A stretch of 44,847 nt of DNA from an uncultured Phycisphaerales bacterium (GTDB taxonomy: Bacteria > Planctomycetota > Phycisphaerae > Phycisphaerales > UBA1924): NCBI GenBank assembly GCA_937995595.1, contig CALKJW010000030.1, positions 1 to 44,847 on the forward strand, in the 5' to 3' direction. Numbering within the stretch: position 1 is the stretch's first letter; each line of letters begins with the position of its first letter. A program made the translations under genes and the position numbers. A model generated the notes under the pieces. That model was given only the letters and a program-made list of their open reading frames with translations, did no database searches and was not told the origin of the DNA. Below are positions 5,942 through 43,056 of this stretch, piece by piece.

Positions 5942-6751
5942 TTATGCCAAACCGGCCCCCAACTCGCGGCAGAAGGCCCCCGCGGCGGCCGCGGGGCTCT
6001 CGCCGGCCTTGGCCGCGGCACCCATCCGTTTGACCAAGGCGCTGCCGACAATCGCGGCGTCGGCTCCGCCATCGCGGACGACTTGGCGCACCTGTTCCGG
6101 GGTGCCGATGCCGAAGCCGCAGGCGAGTGGCAGGTCGGTGACTTGCCGCAGCATCCGGACACGCTCGGCGATTCGGCCTGTGACCACGTCGCCGCTCTCG
6201 CCCGTGATGCCGGCCCGGGTGAGGACGTAGACAAACCCTGTGCAGGCGCGGGCGATCTCCGCCGCGCGTTGCGGCGAGGTTGTCGGCGCGACCAGCAGGG
6301 TCGTCGTAAGCCCGGCGTTTGCCGCCGCGGCACGCCACGGGCCGCTCTCTTCGGCGGTCAGGTCGGGCAGGATCACGCCGTCGAAACCCGCATCCGCGAG
6401 TTGGCGGAAGCAGGCATCGGGTCCGAGGCGCCAGACGATCGAGACGCTCACCATCGCGACGATGCCGAGTGTGCAGCCCGCCGCGCGTGCCTGCCGGACT
6501 TCCGCCGCGACCGATGCGGGCGTGCAGCCGGAGGCGATCGCCTCGTGCATCGCCGCGGCGATGACGGGGCCATCGGCGATGGGGTCGGAGAAGGGGATGC
6601 CGATCTCGACGACGCTTGCACCGGCGCGCTGGAGTTCGGGCAGCGCGGCGGCGATGGTCCCGACGCTCGGATATCCGCCGCAGACAAACGGCATCAGAGC
6701 CTTGCGGCCGGCGGCGCGAAGATCGCGGAAGATGCTGTCAATGCGGGACAT
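5942..6751 (-). CDS. trpA: Tryptophan synthase alpha chain
   Basis: A predicted 269-residue TIM-barrel subunit that cleaves indole-3-glycerol phosphate to indole and glyceraldehyde 3-phosphate; TrpB uses the indole. VVEIGIPFSDPIADGP at about 47-62 holds the catalytic Glu49 and Asp60. YVLTRAGITG and ACGFGIGTPEQV form the phosphate and flexible loops. Start ATG 6751 gives the family-standard N-terminus (SIFRDLRAAGRKALMPFVCGGYP). No ribosome binding site is present. A TATCCT box lies 8 nt upstream, so the mRNA may be leaderless or nearly so. No other trp gene is within the window, so it is separated from trpB here. Confidence 0.96.
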   Translation of the reverse strand: MSRIDSIFRDLRAAGRKALMPFVCGGYPSVGTIAAALPELQRAGASVVEIGIPFSDPIADGPVIAAAMHEAIASGCTPASVAAEVRQARAAGCTLGIVAMVSVSIVWRLGPDACFRQLADAGFDGVILPDLTAEESGPWRAAAANAGLTTTLLVAPTTSPQRAAEIARACTGFVYVLTRAGITGESGDVVTGRIAERVRMLRQVTDLPLACGFGIGTPEQVRQVVRDGGADAAIVGSALVKRMGAAAKAGESPAAAAGAFCRELGAGLA

Positions 6752-6759
6752 GCGGCGGG

Positions 6760-6765
6760 AGGATA
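6760..6765 (-). promoter_or_regulatory. Possible -10 box placing trpA near-leaderless
   Basis: TATCCT on the minus strand ends 8 nt before the trpA ATG. No -35 match is evident. It belongs to a recurrent pattern in this window. Confidence 0.35.
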
Positions 6766-6844
6766 GGGGAGCCGGAGGCGGGACGAGTCCTTGGCTCACG
6801 CGACGCCCCGGCGACAACGCTTTCGCGGAATCGCAAGGGGCGCG

Positions 6845-6956
6845 GAGTGCGGAGTGCGGAGTGCAGAGTGCAGAGTGCGGAGTGCAGAGTGCAGAGTGCG
6901 GAGTGCAGAGTGCAGAGTGCAGAGTGCGGAGTGCGGAGTGCGGAGTGCGGAGTGCA
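6845..6956. repeat. Heptanucleotide tandem array 1: 16 x GAGTGC(G/A)
   Basis: Sixteen uninterrupted 7-bp units GAGTGCG or GAGTGCA run without any length variation; only the seventh base varies. The array lies in the region between the divergent trpA and asparaginase-like genes. It shows no dyad and no spacer structure. Similar heptad arrays give rise to spurious repetitive reading frames in other planctomycete and verrucomicrobial genomes (from memory). Confidence 0.95.
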
Positions 6957-6964
6957 GATGATCG

Positions 6965-6970
6965 TACAAT
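6965..6970 (+). promoter_or_regulatory. Possible -10 box between the two heptad arrays
   Basis: TACAAT lies in the short unique spacer between the arrays. If used for the downstream gene, its -35 region falls inside array 1, and the approximately 100-nt leader is made of array 2. Confidence 0.4.
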
Positions 6971-6983
6971 CGGCTCTCGCCTT

Positions 6984-7074
6984 CCGACCTCCGACCTCCG
7001 ACCTCCGACCTCCGACCTCCGACCTCCGACCTCCGACCTCCGACCTCCGACTTCCGCCTTCCGCATTCCGACTT
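6984..7074. repeat. Heptanucleotide tandem array 2: 13 x CCGACCT-type
   Basis: Nine perfect CCGACCT units are followed by four degenerate ones (CCGACTT, CCGCCTT, CCGCATT, CCGACTT). All stay in 7-bp register up to 3 nt before the downstream ATG. The period matches array 1, but the unit is unrelated. Confidence 0.95.
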
Positions 7075-7077
7075 CCC

Positions 7078-8034
7078 ATGCCCCCCCTCATCCTCTCCAC
7101 CTGGTCGTTTGGTCCGGTCGCCAACAACCCCGCGTGGGAGGCGATGTCGCGCGGCGGGAGCGCCCTCGACGCCGTCATCATCGGCGCGACCGCGGTCGAG
7201 AACGACCCGACGATCAACTCCGTCGGCATCGGCGGTCTGCCCGATGCGTCGGGGCGCGTCTCGCTCGACGGGTGTGTGATGGAGAACCCGGACCGCGCGG
7301 GCTCGGTCGCGTGTCTGCGGCGCTTCGCCAACCCGTGCGCCATCGCGCGGCGGGTGATGGAGAGAACGATCCACGTCATGCTCGTGGGCGAGGACGCCGA
7401 CCGCTTCGCCGAGCGCGAGGGCTTCGCGCCCATCGGCGAGAAGGGGCTGCTCACCGACTACGCCCGCGCGGAATGGGAGAAGTGGATCAACGACCCGCGC
7501 CACGTTGATCGGGAGAAGTACCGCGGCTGGATCCCGCCGCTGAACGTCGAGGAGAAGGCCCGCAGCGGCCCGAACCAGTCGCACGACACGGTGTGCGTGC
7601 TCGGGATCGACGGCGCGGGCAGGCTCGCGGGCGCGTGCTCGACGTCGGGCATGGCCTTCAAGGTGCCGGGCCGCGTCGGCGATTCGCCGATCATCGGGCA
7701 CGGGCTGTACGTCGATCAGGAGGCGGGCGCCGCCGCGGCGACGGGCAACGGCGAACTGGTCATGGGCACGTGCGGCTCGTTCCTCGCGGTGGAACTGATG
7801 CGCCTCGGCGCGACGCCGATCGAAGCGGTGAGCGAGGCGCTCACGCGGATCACGAAGCGCTTCAAGTTGGGACCGGACCATCAGGTGGCGATGATCGCGC
7901 TGGCGCGCCCCGCGAAGCCCGGCGAGCAGTGGGGGGGCTGGGCCTCCGCGGCGATCCGCCCCGGATACAGCCACACCATCACCGACGCCGCGGGCACGCG
8001 CGTCGAACCCGCGCAGCGCGTGCTGATGCCGTGA
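7078..8034 (+). CDS. N4-(beta-N-acetylglucosaminyl)-L-asparaginase / isoaspartyl peptidase-type Ntn-hydrolase
   Basis: A predicted 318-residue precursor of the aspartylglucosaminidase/type 2 asparaginase family, which self-cleaves to free a catalytic Thr. The site is QSHDTVCVLG, with cleavage expected between Asp170 and Thr171. GRLAGACSTSGMAFKVPGRVGDSPIIG and the GAAAATGNGE segment form the substrate pocket. The N-terminal half has the usual SALDAVIIGATAVENDP segment. Substrates could be glycosylasparagine or isoaspartyl peptides; the sequence does not settle which. No signal peptide is evident, so it is probably cytoplasmic. ATG 7078 follows directly on heptad array 2, and no ribosome binding site is present. 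Its neighbours give no functional link. Confidence 0.9.
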   Translation: MPPLILSTWSFGPVANNPAWEAMSRGGSALDAVIIGATAVENDPTINSVGIGGLPDASGRVSLDGCVMENPDRAGSVACLRRFANPCAIARRVMERTIHVMLVGEDADRFAEREGFAPIGEKGLLTDYARAEWEKWINDPRHVDREKYRGWIPPLNVEEKARSGPNQSHDTVCVLGIDGAGRLAGACSTSGMAFKVPGRVGDSPIIGHGLYVDQEAGAAAATGNGELVMGTCGSFLAVELMRLGATPIEAVSEALTRITKRFKLGPDHQVAMIALARPAKPGEQWGGWASAAIRPGYSHTITDAAGTRVEPAQRVLMP

Positions 8035-8127
8035 AGCGGTGAAACACGGCGGCGCACGGGGTCGCACGGAGAGAGTTCAGGGTTTGCGCGCGGTTCACGC
8101 GTGCGCGACGTCGCTCACCTGGGCGGG

Positions 8128-39933: not shown

Positions 39934-42900
39934 TCAGCAGCCGCCGAACCAGGTGTTGAGGAAGGCGAAGATGGCCGGCACGCCGGGCGTGCCGCCGAAG
40001 TTCACCGCGTCGGGCTCGTTGGCGAACCACGCGGTGAGGAAGGCGAAGATGTCGCTCACGTCGCGGACGCAGTCGCCGTTCCAGTCCGCCGGGCAGATGG
40101 TGCGGGCGATGATGAGCACGTCGGCGTTGGTCACGACGCCGTCGCCGTCCACGTCGCCCATGGCCCAGCCGCCGGGCATGCCGAGGTTGCCCGCGGCGAT
40201 GGCGCGGTCGGTGCAGTCGGCGACGCCGTCGAGGTTCACGTCGCCGTAGGTCGTGCCGAGGATGACGATGACCAGTTCGTCAACGTCCGCCTGGTTGACC
40301 TTCAGGTCGCCGTTCATGTCGGCCGAGAGGTCGAACAGCACGGCCTCTTCAAGGTCCGACCAGTTGGCTTCGCCGCCGGAGATGCCGGGCTGCTTGAAGT
40401 TCAGGTAGACGTAGTCGATGTCGTTGGCGTCGACGATGCCGTCGAAGCCGATCGGATGCGCGCCGCGCGCGACGCGGAACTTCTCCAGCGGCGTGGGCGC
40501 GGTCGGGTTGCGGCCCGAGCCCACCACGTCGCCGCGGGCGTCGCCCGCCGCGTACGGCTTGCCGGTGGCCAGCGTCGTCGGCAGCAGGGGGAGCGTGCCG
40601 CCCGCGGCGGTGTAGGCGTTGTCGAGGTCGATGCAACCCTGCCTGCGGTTGAGCGTGCCGTTGTAGGAGAAATCGCCCGTCGCGTTGTTGTAGGTGAACG
40701 TGTAGCCGTAGAGCGCAAAGCCGTCGGCGAAGTTGCGCAGGTCCTCGCGGTCGAACGAGCCGTTGGCGTCAAAGTCGCCCTGGATCTCGATGCAGAAGTC
40801 CGCCGCGTTGACGGTCTGCCCGGCGCGCGCGGCCTCCTGCGCGAGGTAACTGCCGGGGATCGCGCCCGGCGCGGTCCACGCCTGACCCTCGGCGCGCTTG
40901 CGGTAGGCCTTGACCATCTCGGGGATGTCCGCGGCGTTGCGGTGTCCGTCGCCGTTGAAGTCGCCCGCGGTCAGGTTGCGGATCGGCAGGTTGGTGCGGC
41001 GGGTGAGCGTGGCGCCGCCCTCGGTGCGGTAGCTGCCGTCCACCGACGCCTGCGGGTTGACCGACTGGTCGCTGTAGGTCGACGCGGCGACGCGGTCGGG
41101 CACCTTGCCCGCGCGGCTGTTGGAGGGGTTCACCGGCGCGACCGAGTTGCCGAACGCGGCGTACGCCGGGTTGCTGTAGACGTTGATGCCCGGCGTCGCG
41201 GTGAACGCGGCGAGATTGGGGTTGTAGTTCGGGTTCGGGTCGAGGATCAGCGGGTCGGCGACGCGCTGGATGCGCGGCATCGCGTCGATGAGTACGAACG
41301 CGGTGGCGAGCAGTTCGCCGGGGGTGAACAGCGTCTGGTCCGAGCCGGGCGAGCCCTCGAACGCGCGGAGCGAGCGGGCGATGTTGTTCAGGTACGCCGC
41401 GGCGTGGACGTTCCGCATCGGCGGGTTGAGCAGCGCGGGGCGCGTCTCGGCCGCGTCGCGGATCCCGTTCTGGTTGATGTCGTTGAAGTCCTCGCCGAGG
41501 TCGTACACGCCGTTGTTGTTGGCGTCGAAGTAGGGCTCCATCCAGCCCAGCCCGCCCTTCTCCGGCGGAGCGCTGAAGGGGTCGCCGAACGAGGCGAGCA
41601 CGGCCGGGCCGCCGATCACCCAACTGTTGGCGTCGTACTGCAGGATGTTGTCGATCGTCGGCCGGGCGTAGACCGTGCCGTTGAACGGCGCGACGTCGTT
41701 GCGGACCGCGGCGATCTCCATGAGACCCGACGACAGCCACGTGCTGGCGGAGGAATCGAGGCCGCGCTCCGGACCGACGTAGCCGATCGCGACGCGGCAG
41801 TTCCATGTGCAGGGCTCGACGTTGGCGTTGGAGTTCTTGTTCGAGGGCAGGTAGAGCGCGCCGGCCTGCTCATTGGCCGTGGCGTTGTTGCGCGGGCCGA
41901 GGTTGTCGCCCACGCCCCACGACGGGTCGCGGCCCATCGAGTTGTCCCACGCGTTGCGCGTGCCCGAGCCCGAGTCGCGCGTCACCGCGACGAGGTTCTC
42001 GCCGCTCCTGCGACGGCCCGCGCCGAACAGGTGCTGCAGGTCCGACATGTCGATCTTCTGGATGTTCGTCCCGTAGTTCACGACCGGCGCCACCGGGGCG
42101 AAGGCGATCGAGGTGTCGAAGATGGTGTTGCTGTCCGCGGCGGGGTTGTAGACGCCCGGCAGCGCGGCCGAGAGGTTCGCGCCCGCGGTCAACTGGGCGA
42201 GTTTCTGGCCGCCGAGCGTGTTGCCCTGCGGGCCGGTGGTCGTCGTCGTGCCGTCGCGGTTGATCGCCAGTCGCGGGTTGTTGCCGTAGCCCGGCTCCAG
42301 CGGGTTGCGCGTCAGCGCGGGGGTGCCGGCCTGCGTGGTGGCGTAGGTCGCCGGCACGTCGATCGGCGCGATATCGACCGTCAGGCCGCCCTGGCTGGTG
42401 ATGGCCGACGATCCGCCGTTGGCGAGGTTGGTCGAGGGCGTGTTGGGCAGGGTGAACAGCGCGAGGAAACTCCCGTCGCGCGTGTTCATGACCGGAGCGT
42501 TCATGGGGTTGCCGGAGTTGGCGATCAGGCCGTAGGAGCCCGGGAACTCGGGGCTGTTGTCGTCGTTGGCCGCGCCGTTCTGCAGGAAGCGGTAGCGGTT
42601 GAAGTAGGCGCGGCTGCGGGCGCTGGTGCGCAGGCTGATCAGCGAATCGGGGTTGCTGCCCGGCACGGCGGTGTACGTGCGGCCGAAGTTGATCAGTTCC
42701 TGGAAGCCGTTGGTCGAGCCGACGTTGCTGTACATCACGGCCCAGTGCACGTTGCGCCCGGTGCCGGGCTCGGCGGGCCAGACGCCCTCCAGATCGGTGT
42801 CGGGGAGCAGGAAGGGGGCCAACTGGTCGTTGCGGCGCGGGTCGCCGGGTGGGTACGGGATCGAGCGGGCCAGACGGTCGCCGTCGACGTCGATGTAGTC

Positions 42901-43056
42901 GATCGTGCCGCCGCGCTTGTTGAAGAAGTTCTCCAGCAGCGTCGCGCCGGAGATGTTGATGACCTTGGGCTGCTCCGGCTGCGCGGCGGCGACGCCGCAC
43001 ACGCCGGCGACGCCGCCGCCCGCGAGAATCATGGCCAGACTGCGCTTGACAAACAT
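39934..43056 (-). CDS. Large secreted protein: phosphate-binding-protein-like part plus dockerin-type repeats and GC-type C-terminus
   Basis: A predicted 1040-residue exported protein with a signal peptide ending near VAAAQ (residue 26). The first half starts VINISGATLLENFF and contains AVTRDSGSGTRNAWD, which resemble the substrate-binding motifs of PstS-type phosphate-binding proteins. After about 500 residues come calcium-loop repeats: DANNNGVYDLGEDFNDINQN, GDFNGDGHRNAADI, GDFDANGSFDREDL, ADMNGDLKVNQADV, GDVNLDGVAD and GDVDGDGVVTNADV. The end is DVSDIFAFLTAWF and PAIFAFLNTWFGGC, the same paired tail as the smaller secreted protein. AGGAGGAA precedes ATG 43056. It follows a pseudopilin gene by 104 bp in the same direction. 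The binding assignment is inferred from motifs only. Confidence 0.8.
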   Translation of the reverse strand: MFVKRSLAMILAGGGVAGVCGVAAAQPEQPKVINISGATLLENFFNKRGGTIDYIDVDGDRLARSIPYPPGDPRRNDQLAPFLLPDTDLEGVWPAEPGTGRNVHWAVMYSNVGSTNGFQELINFGRTYTAVPGSNPDSLISLRTSARSRAYFNRYRFLQNGAANDDNSPEFPGSYGLIANSGNPMNAPVMNTRDGSFLALFTLPNTPSTNLANGGSSAITSQGGLTVDIAPIDVPATYATTQAGTPALTRNPLEPGYGNNPRLAINRDGTTTTTGPQGNTLGGQKLAQLTAGANLSAALPGVYNPAADSNTIFDTSIAFAPVAPVVNYGTNIQKIDMSDLQHLFGAGRRRSGENLVAVTRDSGSGTRNAWDNSMGRDPSWGVGDNLGPRNNATANEQAGALYLPSNKNSNANVEPCTWNCRVAIGYVGPERGLDSSASTWLSSGLMEIAAVRNDVAPFNGTVYARPTIDNILQYDANSWVIGGPAVLASFGDPFSAPPEKGGLGWMEPYFDANNNGVYDLGEDFNDINQNGIRDAAETRPALLNPPMRNVHAAAYLNNIARSLRAFEGSPGSDQTLFTPGELLATAFVLIDAMPRIQRVADPLILDPNPNYNPNLAAFTATPGINVYSNPAYAAFGNSVAPVNPSNSRAGKVPDRVAASTYSDQSVNPQASVDGSYRTEGGATLTRRTNLPIRNLTAGDFNGDGHRNAADIPEMVKAYRKRAEGQAWTAPGAIPGSYLAQEAARAGQTVNAADFCIEIQGDFDANGSFDREDLRNFADGFALYGYTFTYNNATGDFSYNGTLNRRQGCIDLDNAYTAAGGTLPLLPTTLATGKPYAAGDARGDVVGSGRNPTAPTPLEKFRVARGAHPIGFDGIVDANDIDYVYLNFKQPGISGGEANWSDLEEAVLFDLSADMNGDLKVNQADVDELVIVILGTTYGDVNLDGVADCTDRAIAAGNLGMPGGWAMGDVDGDGVVTNADVLIIARTICPADWNGDCVRDVSDIFAFLTAWFANEPDAVNFGGTPGVPAIFAFLNTWFGGC

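Follow-up and report, generated by a model that had tools for sequence, protein, structure and literature searches.

That seven-base repeats are over-abundant in bacteria has long been observed without an explanation, and polymerase slippage is usually held responsible. Copies of another type of repeat, the REP and REPIN sequences, flank or adjoin the gene of a Y1 transposase (RAYT). In the accessible parts of the literature, heptads are cited as the commonest or as an over-represented class of long simple repeats (PMC4679880, PMC4692102), and the best comparison for the locus analysed here is provided by the GGGAATC or (GGGANTN)n heptad arrays of Xanthomonas and the GGGGA(C/T)T arrays of Nostoc (Rehm et al. 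2015, PMC4692102). Two further systems are relevant, again as far as the accessible text of the sources goes. In Haemophilus influenzae, the 5′-UTR of the hmw1A P2 transcripts contains (ATCTTTC)n, and more copies lead to lower expression (PMC8262952). REP and REPIN elements are GTAG- or CGTC-tagged palindromes of 20-40 bp (PMC3733652).

The window, i.e. the whole stretch of 44,847 nt from an uncultured Phycisphaerales bacterium that was analysed, carries two heptad arrays which occupy most of the spacer between trpA (-) and a divergent Asparaginase_2 gene (+) (Table 1). A match to trpA was present in 56 of the 61 genomes of a family sample, and the product of the right gene is presumably N4-(beta-N-acetylglucosaminyl)-L-asparaginase-like. 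The initial annotation, which had described two heptad arrays in strict 7-bp register within one intergenic region, was confirmed by listing of the units, by TRF (period 7 for both arrays; 16.3 copies for array 1 and 10.6 copies for array 2) and by Markov shuffles. The period-7 scores of the arrays were 83 and 69, and when the window was shuffled 200 times by a first-order Markov model, no period-7 array with a score of at least 18 was obtained, the best one reaching 13.

Table 1. Features of the twin-array spacer and its two flanking genes (window coordinates).
Feature	Position	Strand	Description
trpA, tryptophan synthase alpha chain, left divergent gene	5942..6751	-	Pfam PF00290, E 5.6e-66
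Non-repetitive trpA-side part of the spacer	6752..6843		92 bp, by sequence
Array 1	6844..6955	+	16 consecutive heptads GGAGTGC/AGAGTGC; G-rich strand +
Near-palindromic core GATCGTACAATC	6960..6971		TACAAT on +, TACGAT on -; putative shared -10 region of a divergent promoter
Array 2	6979..7076	-	14 heptads, 9 of them GGAGGTC; G-rich strand -
Asparaginase_2 family gene, right divergent gene	7078..8034	+	Pfam PF01112, E 4.6e-58

Array 1 is composed of nine GGAGTGC and seven AGAGTGC units with the first-base order G G G A A G A A G A A A G G G G, and thus contains AAG-type three-unit blocks. Read on the minus strand from 7076 to 6979, the units of array 2 are GGAAGTC, GGAATGC, GGAAGGC and GGAAGTC, followed by the GGAGGTC units and a final GGAAGGC. 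Four variant units therefore lie at the gene-side end and one at the distal end, so that the earlier description of all variants as gene-proximal does not hold, and the reported gap of 27 bp between the arrays applies if array 2 is counted from 6983, whereas it is 23 bp with the distal variant unit included. On the other side, a degenerate heptad start may be present at 6837, inside the trpA-side part of the spacer. A single base separates the 5′-end of array 2 from the asparaginase start codon. The G-rich strands of both arrays run inward, from the gene side to the central core; the distances of their 5′- and 3′-ends to the ORF edge are 7 and 231 bp for array 2 (TRF-like edges) and 90 and 122 bp for array 1. 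The two words, which had been called unrelated, are so on the same strand (best rotation 3/7), but on opposite strands 5/7 positions are common to both. This likeness alone proves nothing, since 6,057 of 20,000 random heptads of the same base composition did as well or better.

An assembly artefact is unlikely as an explanation of the arrays as a whole, because they lie inside the contig and because (GGAGTGC)x4 is also found in records whose titles name a complete genome or chromosome (L142, L146); the exact unit numbers are uncertain in this draft assembly. The search for known RNA families returned five matches with E-values up to 1, all of them to miRNA or UTR families and far below gathering scores.

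The pattern GGARNNC contains a stop codon in 0 of its 32 words on either strand, in all six frames. Long ORFs cross the arrays at 5942-7066 (-), 6240-7508 (+), 6616-8034 (+), 6738-7454 (-) and 6796-8067 (-), and the first of these is the trpA ORF, which gains a TPHSALRTLHSALC-like N-terminal extension through the stop-free array. Arrays of this kind can create false N-terminal protein extensions, which is a warning for annotators. Elsewhere in the window, a 1040-aa ORF at 39934-43056 (-) gave no Pfam match at E 0.001.

The window core is likely a divergent promoter, as judged from its sequence. A sigma-70 scan of 6700-7150 detected no canonical promoter, and no -35 consensus was found beside the cores. 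Spacer motifs were counted with two core-bearing spacers included and with the window spacer left out, since trpA lies below the score cut of the home-made gene caller. Under these conditions, TANNAT reached counts of 38 in 74 divergent spacers (shuffle mean 12.1, maximum 17), 55 in 259 tandem spacers (mean 23.7, maximum 37) and 0 in 42 convergent spacers (mean 1.5). GATCGTA was counted five times in divergent spacers (shuffle mean 0.85), ten times in tandem spacers (mean 1.48) and not at all in convergent spacers. The motif CGTANNAT, which is nearer to the core than TANNAT, did not exceed the shuffle maxima in the same counts (7, maximum 7; 8, maximum 10).

With one to two changes, the core GATCGTACAATC also adjoins the arrays at C25, C28:45.2k and C34/C23 of this genome. 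The C15 array runs into CGATCGTACAGA, which partly matches the window core, and at C27:11.5k and C28:52.5k the core was recognised by eye with short C-rich heptads downstream. According to a hand count, the distance between the GGA of the final full unit and CGTA amounts to 14 bp at the window locus, C15, C34/C23 and C28 and 15 bp at C25. In the flanking sequences examined, no such core was seen at C13 and C28:71.7k, which carry long or medium arrays. Allowing up to one mismatch, eight core matches were obtained in 964 kb; this is not above chance, as five Markov-2 shuffles gave between 1 and 9. Six of the eight adjoin heptads, two of the six probably representing one locus. The count of the core is not unusual; only its position beside heptads is.

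The genome was searched for both heptads and for their pairing, as the initial annotation had proposed. (GAGTGCR)x3 occurs at six places (33 overlapping matches) and CCGACYT x3 at the window locus only (8 overlapping matches). Facing pairs recur at C25, with GGGAAGT and GGAGTGC, and at the contig ends C34/C23, with GGAAGGC and GGGAAGT. The ends of C34 and C23 (L161, L157), in the same reading direction, overlap by 158 bp with 95.6% identity. This overlap lies within a twin array, at which the assembly was probably interrupted, so that C34 and C23 are probably contiguous there. On the basis of this overlap they were counted as one locus.

Orthologous spacers were compared with the congener G001. 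At C25, the same two divergent genes are present in G001, and the spacer has 82 bp compared to 184 bp in this genome. The core is kept there as CGATCGTAGAAT and is flanked by 3+3 degenerate heptads, the lag-7 score of 9 being reached by none of 1000 shuffles. The divergent genes at C28:45.2k are likewise the same in both genomes (spacer of 183 bp in G001 vs 193 bp here), and the core is kept, but the arm on the same side consists of about 14 GGGTGTC-type units in G001 and of GGAAGGC x18 here. The core has thus been kept while the heptad word was replaced and the arms grew, in two spacers and in comparison with one congener. For the window locus itself, trpA and the asparaginase gene are on different contigs in G001 with other upstream sequence (1.5 kb seen on each side), and the more distant G006, which belongs to a different genus, still has the asparaginase gene and trpA in divergent orientation, separated by about 48 bp that contain no array.

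Beyond these genomes, (GGAGTGC)x4 was found in at least 115 stretches of public genome contigs, which according to the record titles derive from Planctomycetota, Verrucomicrobiota, Acidobacteria, Chloroflexi, Proteobacteria, Streptomyces and others. Among 61 close genomes, GGARNNC x4 was present in 10, so that most relatives are without such arrays, and relatives with several arrays use words of their own (e.g. GGAAACC/GGAAAGC in G011, GGAGAAC in G013 and GGAACTC in G010). GGARNNC was considered as a special consensus and rejected: it occurred four times in tandem in 28 of the 296 genomes of a class sample, and the pattern written backwards in 31 of them (6 in both). Judged from the backwards pattern, other G-rich heptad words are as frequent, and the exact consensus is not special. 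It is the wording of this genome and of some others.

Several public loci showed peculiarities of their own. In one Blastocatellia MAG, the flanks of two heptad arrays (L055:2178 onward and L072 before 3932) are almost the same over about 50 bp at the 3′-end of the G-strand, and these arrays may, from their sequence, belong to a dispersed element. L131:7251-7374 contains three GGAGTGC-type arrays of four units each, all in the same direction; an almost identical 20-base spacer, GACTGCC(C/T)GGACAACCGTGC, comes after the first and after the second, an arrangement that resembles a higher-order repeat. The period changes within one stretch at L109:21-164, where an octamer array (GGAGTGCT)n and a heptamer array (GGAGTGC)n are immediately adjacent. 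The Verrucomicrobiota record L058 ends at 7593-7695 in (CCCTAAA/CCCCAAA)n, which we take to resemble a plant-type telomere repeat, with contamination or a chimera as possible sources.

The period was surveyed over a range of 2-24. Among the intergenic arrays with a score of at least 12 in unselected sequence of five relatives (400 kb), period 7 was the commonest (13/25), followed by period 8 (5/25); within called genes, nine of the 18 arrays had period 3 and three had period 7. In 700 kb of unselected sequence from the own genome, period 7 accounted for 5 of 12 intergenic arrays and, at a score of at least 20, for 1 of 2, the latter number being too small for a ranking of periods. Two intergenic arrays of period 7 thus need no special coincidence, and the premise of the initial annotation, that the same period twice is unexpected, finds no support. 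That the two arrays belong together is supported by the recurrence of facing pairs, in this genome and in other bacteria, and by the core that they have in common with other array loci.

Strand polarity and pairing were determined for arrays of at least three GGA[AG]NNC units in all 115 public loci of many phyla (some array scans used 80 of these) and in the stretches from this genome and its relatives, with genes called by the home-made caller, which penalises overlap with arrays. Of the 84 arrays whose nearest gene edge lay within 60 bp, 70 had the G-rich strand directed away from it (32 of 37 at starts and 38 of 47 at stops), this edge being a stop codon in 47 of the 84. Within 250 bp, 15 array pairs were convergent, none was divergent and five were on the same strand, in a count that leaves out convergent pairs with a second arm other than GGARNNC, such as C25 and C34/C23. 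Many arrays in the public loci, in this genome and in the relatives are single. When the 5′-end lying nearer to the gene was taken as the measure, this genome gave 7 of 9 arrays, instead of 8 of 10, after correction of the list, in which two arrays (window array 1 and L065) had been entered doubly, and one of four groups, the other relatives, showed no polarity (6/11). In unselected sequence with no word preset, a hand count found the 5′-end nearer to the gene in 8 of 9 period-7 arrays with a purine fraction of at least 0.60 and both flanking genes called; arrays with weaker skew, which have no clear strand, were left out. The polarity accords with that described for Xanthomonas (PMC4692102).

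The explanation that is favoured here, and that we hold to be slightly more probable than its negation, is that slippage-expanded heptad leaders lie on either side of a divergent promoter core. A short near-palindromic promoter core would be located at the centre of the divergent spacer, and both of its flanks, toward the start codons, would have been built into heptads by slippage and by exchange of multi-unit blocks, with short periodic stretches beside the core as the presumed seeds. The AAG-type blocks of array 1 and the short periodic precursors seen in G001 are consistent with multi-unit slippage. The arrays would be transcribed as leaders, and because the purine- and G-rich strand runs from the gene side to the core, the RNA of each leader would be rich in C and would lack Shine-Dalgarno-like GGAG. 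The number of units would vary between cells, and a likely consequence is that leader length and expression would change; absent any expression advantage, the arrays would merely be tolerated in the spacer. Tuning of expression by copy number is plausible by analogy, and a reasonable expectation, since the 5′-UTR heptads of hmw1A lower expression as they lengthen.

Independent slippage alone explains neither the strand polarity nor the presence of one word at six places. The promoter-leader account in turn does not cover the whole class, because elsewhere the ends of genes carry arrays no less often than the starts. As further candidates, Rho-dependent termination and R-loops were rejected, since presumably neither accounts for the same polarity at starts and stops. 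A more far-reaching version of the favoured explanation, which is put forward tentatively and with more doubt than belief, regards core and heptads as one evolving leader module of this genus, in which interchangeable words would be grown, lost and replaced around a bidirectional promoter core at constant polarity and period, so that the 7-bp periodicity, with purines toward the core, would be selected or generated independently of sequence.

A dispersed mobile-type element, in which a core with inverted arms would be copied between spacers, e.g. by a Y1 (RAYT-like) transposase in the manner of a REPIN, is unlikely, even though the core and arms recur at several loci and heptad words are common to non-orthologous places within the genus; the C25 GGGAAGT array, for example, matches the stretch C1:466591-466682 of G001 with 98% over 92 bp. 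Both core loci that were tested occupy orthologous positions in G001. Strong Y1_Tnp matches (E<=1e-20) were present in 18 of 28 array genomes vs 88 of 268 others (Fisher p 0.0016; p 0.007 on permutation within family and size bin), but this cut-off was post hoc and one of three (p 0.020 at 1e-3 and 0.026 at 1e-15), ten of the 28 array genomes have no strong match, and the permutation gave p 0.056 once genomes with the reverse-read pattern were added. For the transposase family PF00665, taken as a control, a count by eye gave matches in 19 of 28 array genomes vs 158 of 268 others. In the five relatives, arrays were found near 7 of 16 Y1 loci vs 10 of 40 background tiles (p 0.21), and none at the other four of the 20 Y1 loci, which include two in this genome (0/2). 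The Y1/RAYT transposase is an unlikely generator of the arrays, the genome-level association resting on a post hoc cut-off and proximity being not significant.

The initial annotation had also considered a protein reading 7-bp steps. A word-specific reader is disfavoured, because the orthologous congener spacer keeps the core while its long arm consists of a different heptad. A nucleoid or regulatory factor that recognises a purine step instead of a word would agree with the constancy of period and polarity while the word varies, and the paired heptad and octad repeats of Geobacter metallireducens are annotated as putative sites of a global regulator in the accessible text of the source (PMC2700814). 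Yet the word differs between genomes as well as at the orthologous spacer, and most relatives are without such arrays, so that a binding array of this kind is improbable. Equally improbable is a selected structure, with the inverted arms as hairpin or cruciform or the G-rich strands as quadruplexes. The 236-nt strand folds better than 200 of 200 shuffles (z -3.37), and oligonucleotides of the Xanthomonas repeat form quadruplexes in vitro according to the accessible part of that study (PMC4692102). Inverted purine/pyrimidine arrays, however, fold well by construction, the arms match at only 5/7 positions per unit, units with GG instead of GGG would form weak two-tetrad quadruplexes at most, and many arrays are single. 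Just as little probability is given to neutral slippage alone, acting at two places in the same spacer without a role of the core or a rule of position: period 7 is the commonest nearby intergenic period and heptads are cited as common long simple repeats in the accessible sources (PMC4679880, PMC4692102), but the polarity, the excess of convergent over divergent pairs and the common core beside the arrays stand against it.

Compared with known systems, the favoured promoter-leader arrangement shares different features with each of them; all comparisons refer to the accessible text of the sources. The heptads of hmw1A/hmw2A also lie downstream of a promoter, which is a predicted one here, and their sense strand is pyrimidine-rich, but they are single-sided, located between two promoters of an adhesin locus, and their effect on expression has been demonstrated (PMC8262952). 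Geobacter metallireducens has tandem 7-8-bp units, several classes of which occur as opposite-strand pairs at variable distance; the words are different (such as MTYCTGA and GTTGCTYN) and that text describes no promoter core (PMC2700814). The TAACTGA repeats of Beggiatoaceae are intergenic heptads just upstream of start codons and patchy across phyla, but they use one fixed word, mostly in short forward sets that are hardly paired, with one inverted repeat (PMC4679880). Pseudo-symmetrical bidirectional promoters likewise place a near-palindromic core between divergent genes, whereas heptad arrays are not mentioned in the accessible parts of the two reports (PMC12825309, PMC10268837). In comparison with REP/REPIN, the arms here are heptad tandems and, by eye, the 12-bp core has no GTAG or CGTC tags.

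The arrays of Rehm et al. are closest in layout. They are 7-nt G-rich units, mostly intergenic and variable in length and sequence between relatives, and in Xanthomonas they form convergent pairs (70 and 75 cases) with the 5′-end of the G-strand nearer to the neighbouring ORF (28 vs 160 nt on average) (PMC4692102). The window arrays were found to be tandem 7-nt G-rich units with the 5′-end nearer to the ORF edge and in a convergent pair. In contrast to the GGG of the described type, the units here have GG only, which makes quadruplex formation doubtful, and the G-rich heptad arrays were therefore not filed as a quadruplex repeat. Moreover, the present spacer is divergent, a position under-represented in the accessible data of Rehm et al. 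(PMC4692102), and the promoter-like core common to both arms is a feature of the present spacer when set against that text. Searches of the open literature, which covers few subscription papers, found no description of a kept core with word replacement. G-rich heptad arrays are a real but little-studied class of bacterial repeat. The kept core with a replaced word constitutes a natural experiment, in which period and polarity persist and sequence does not, and makes it testable what sets the period and the strand, be it the mechanics of slippage, a function of the leader or selection against leaders that resemble Shine-Dalgarno sequences. The layout of the locus matches that of the GGGAATC arrays of Xanthomonas, and the replacement of the word around a kept core is the new part.
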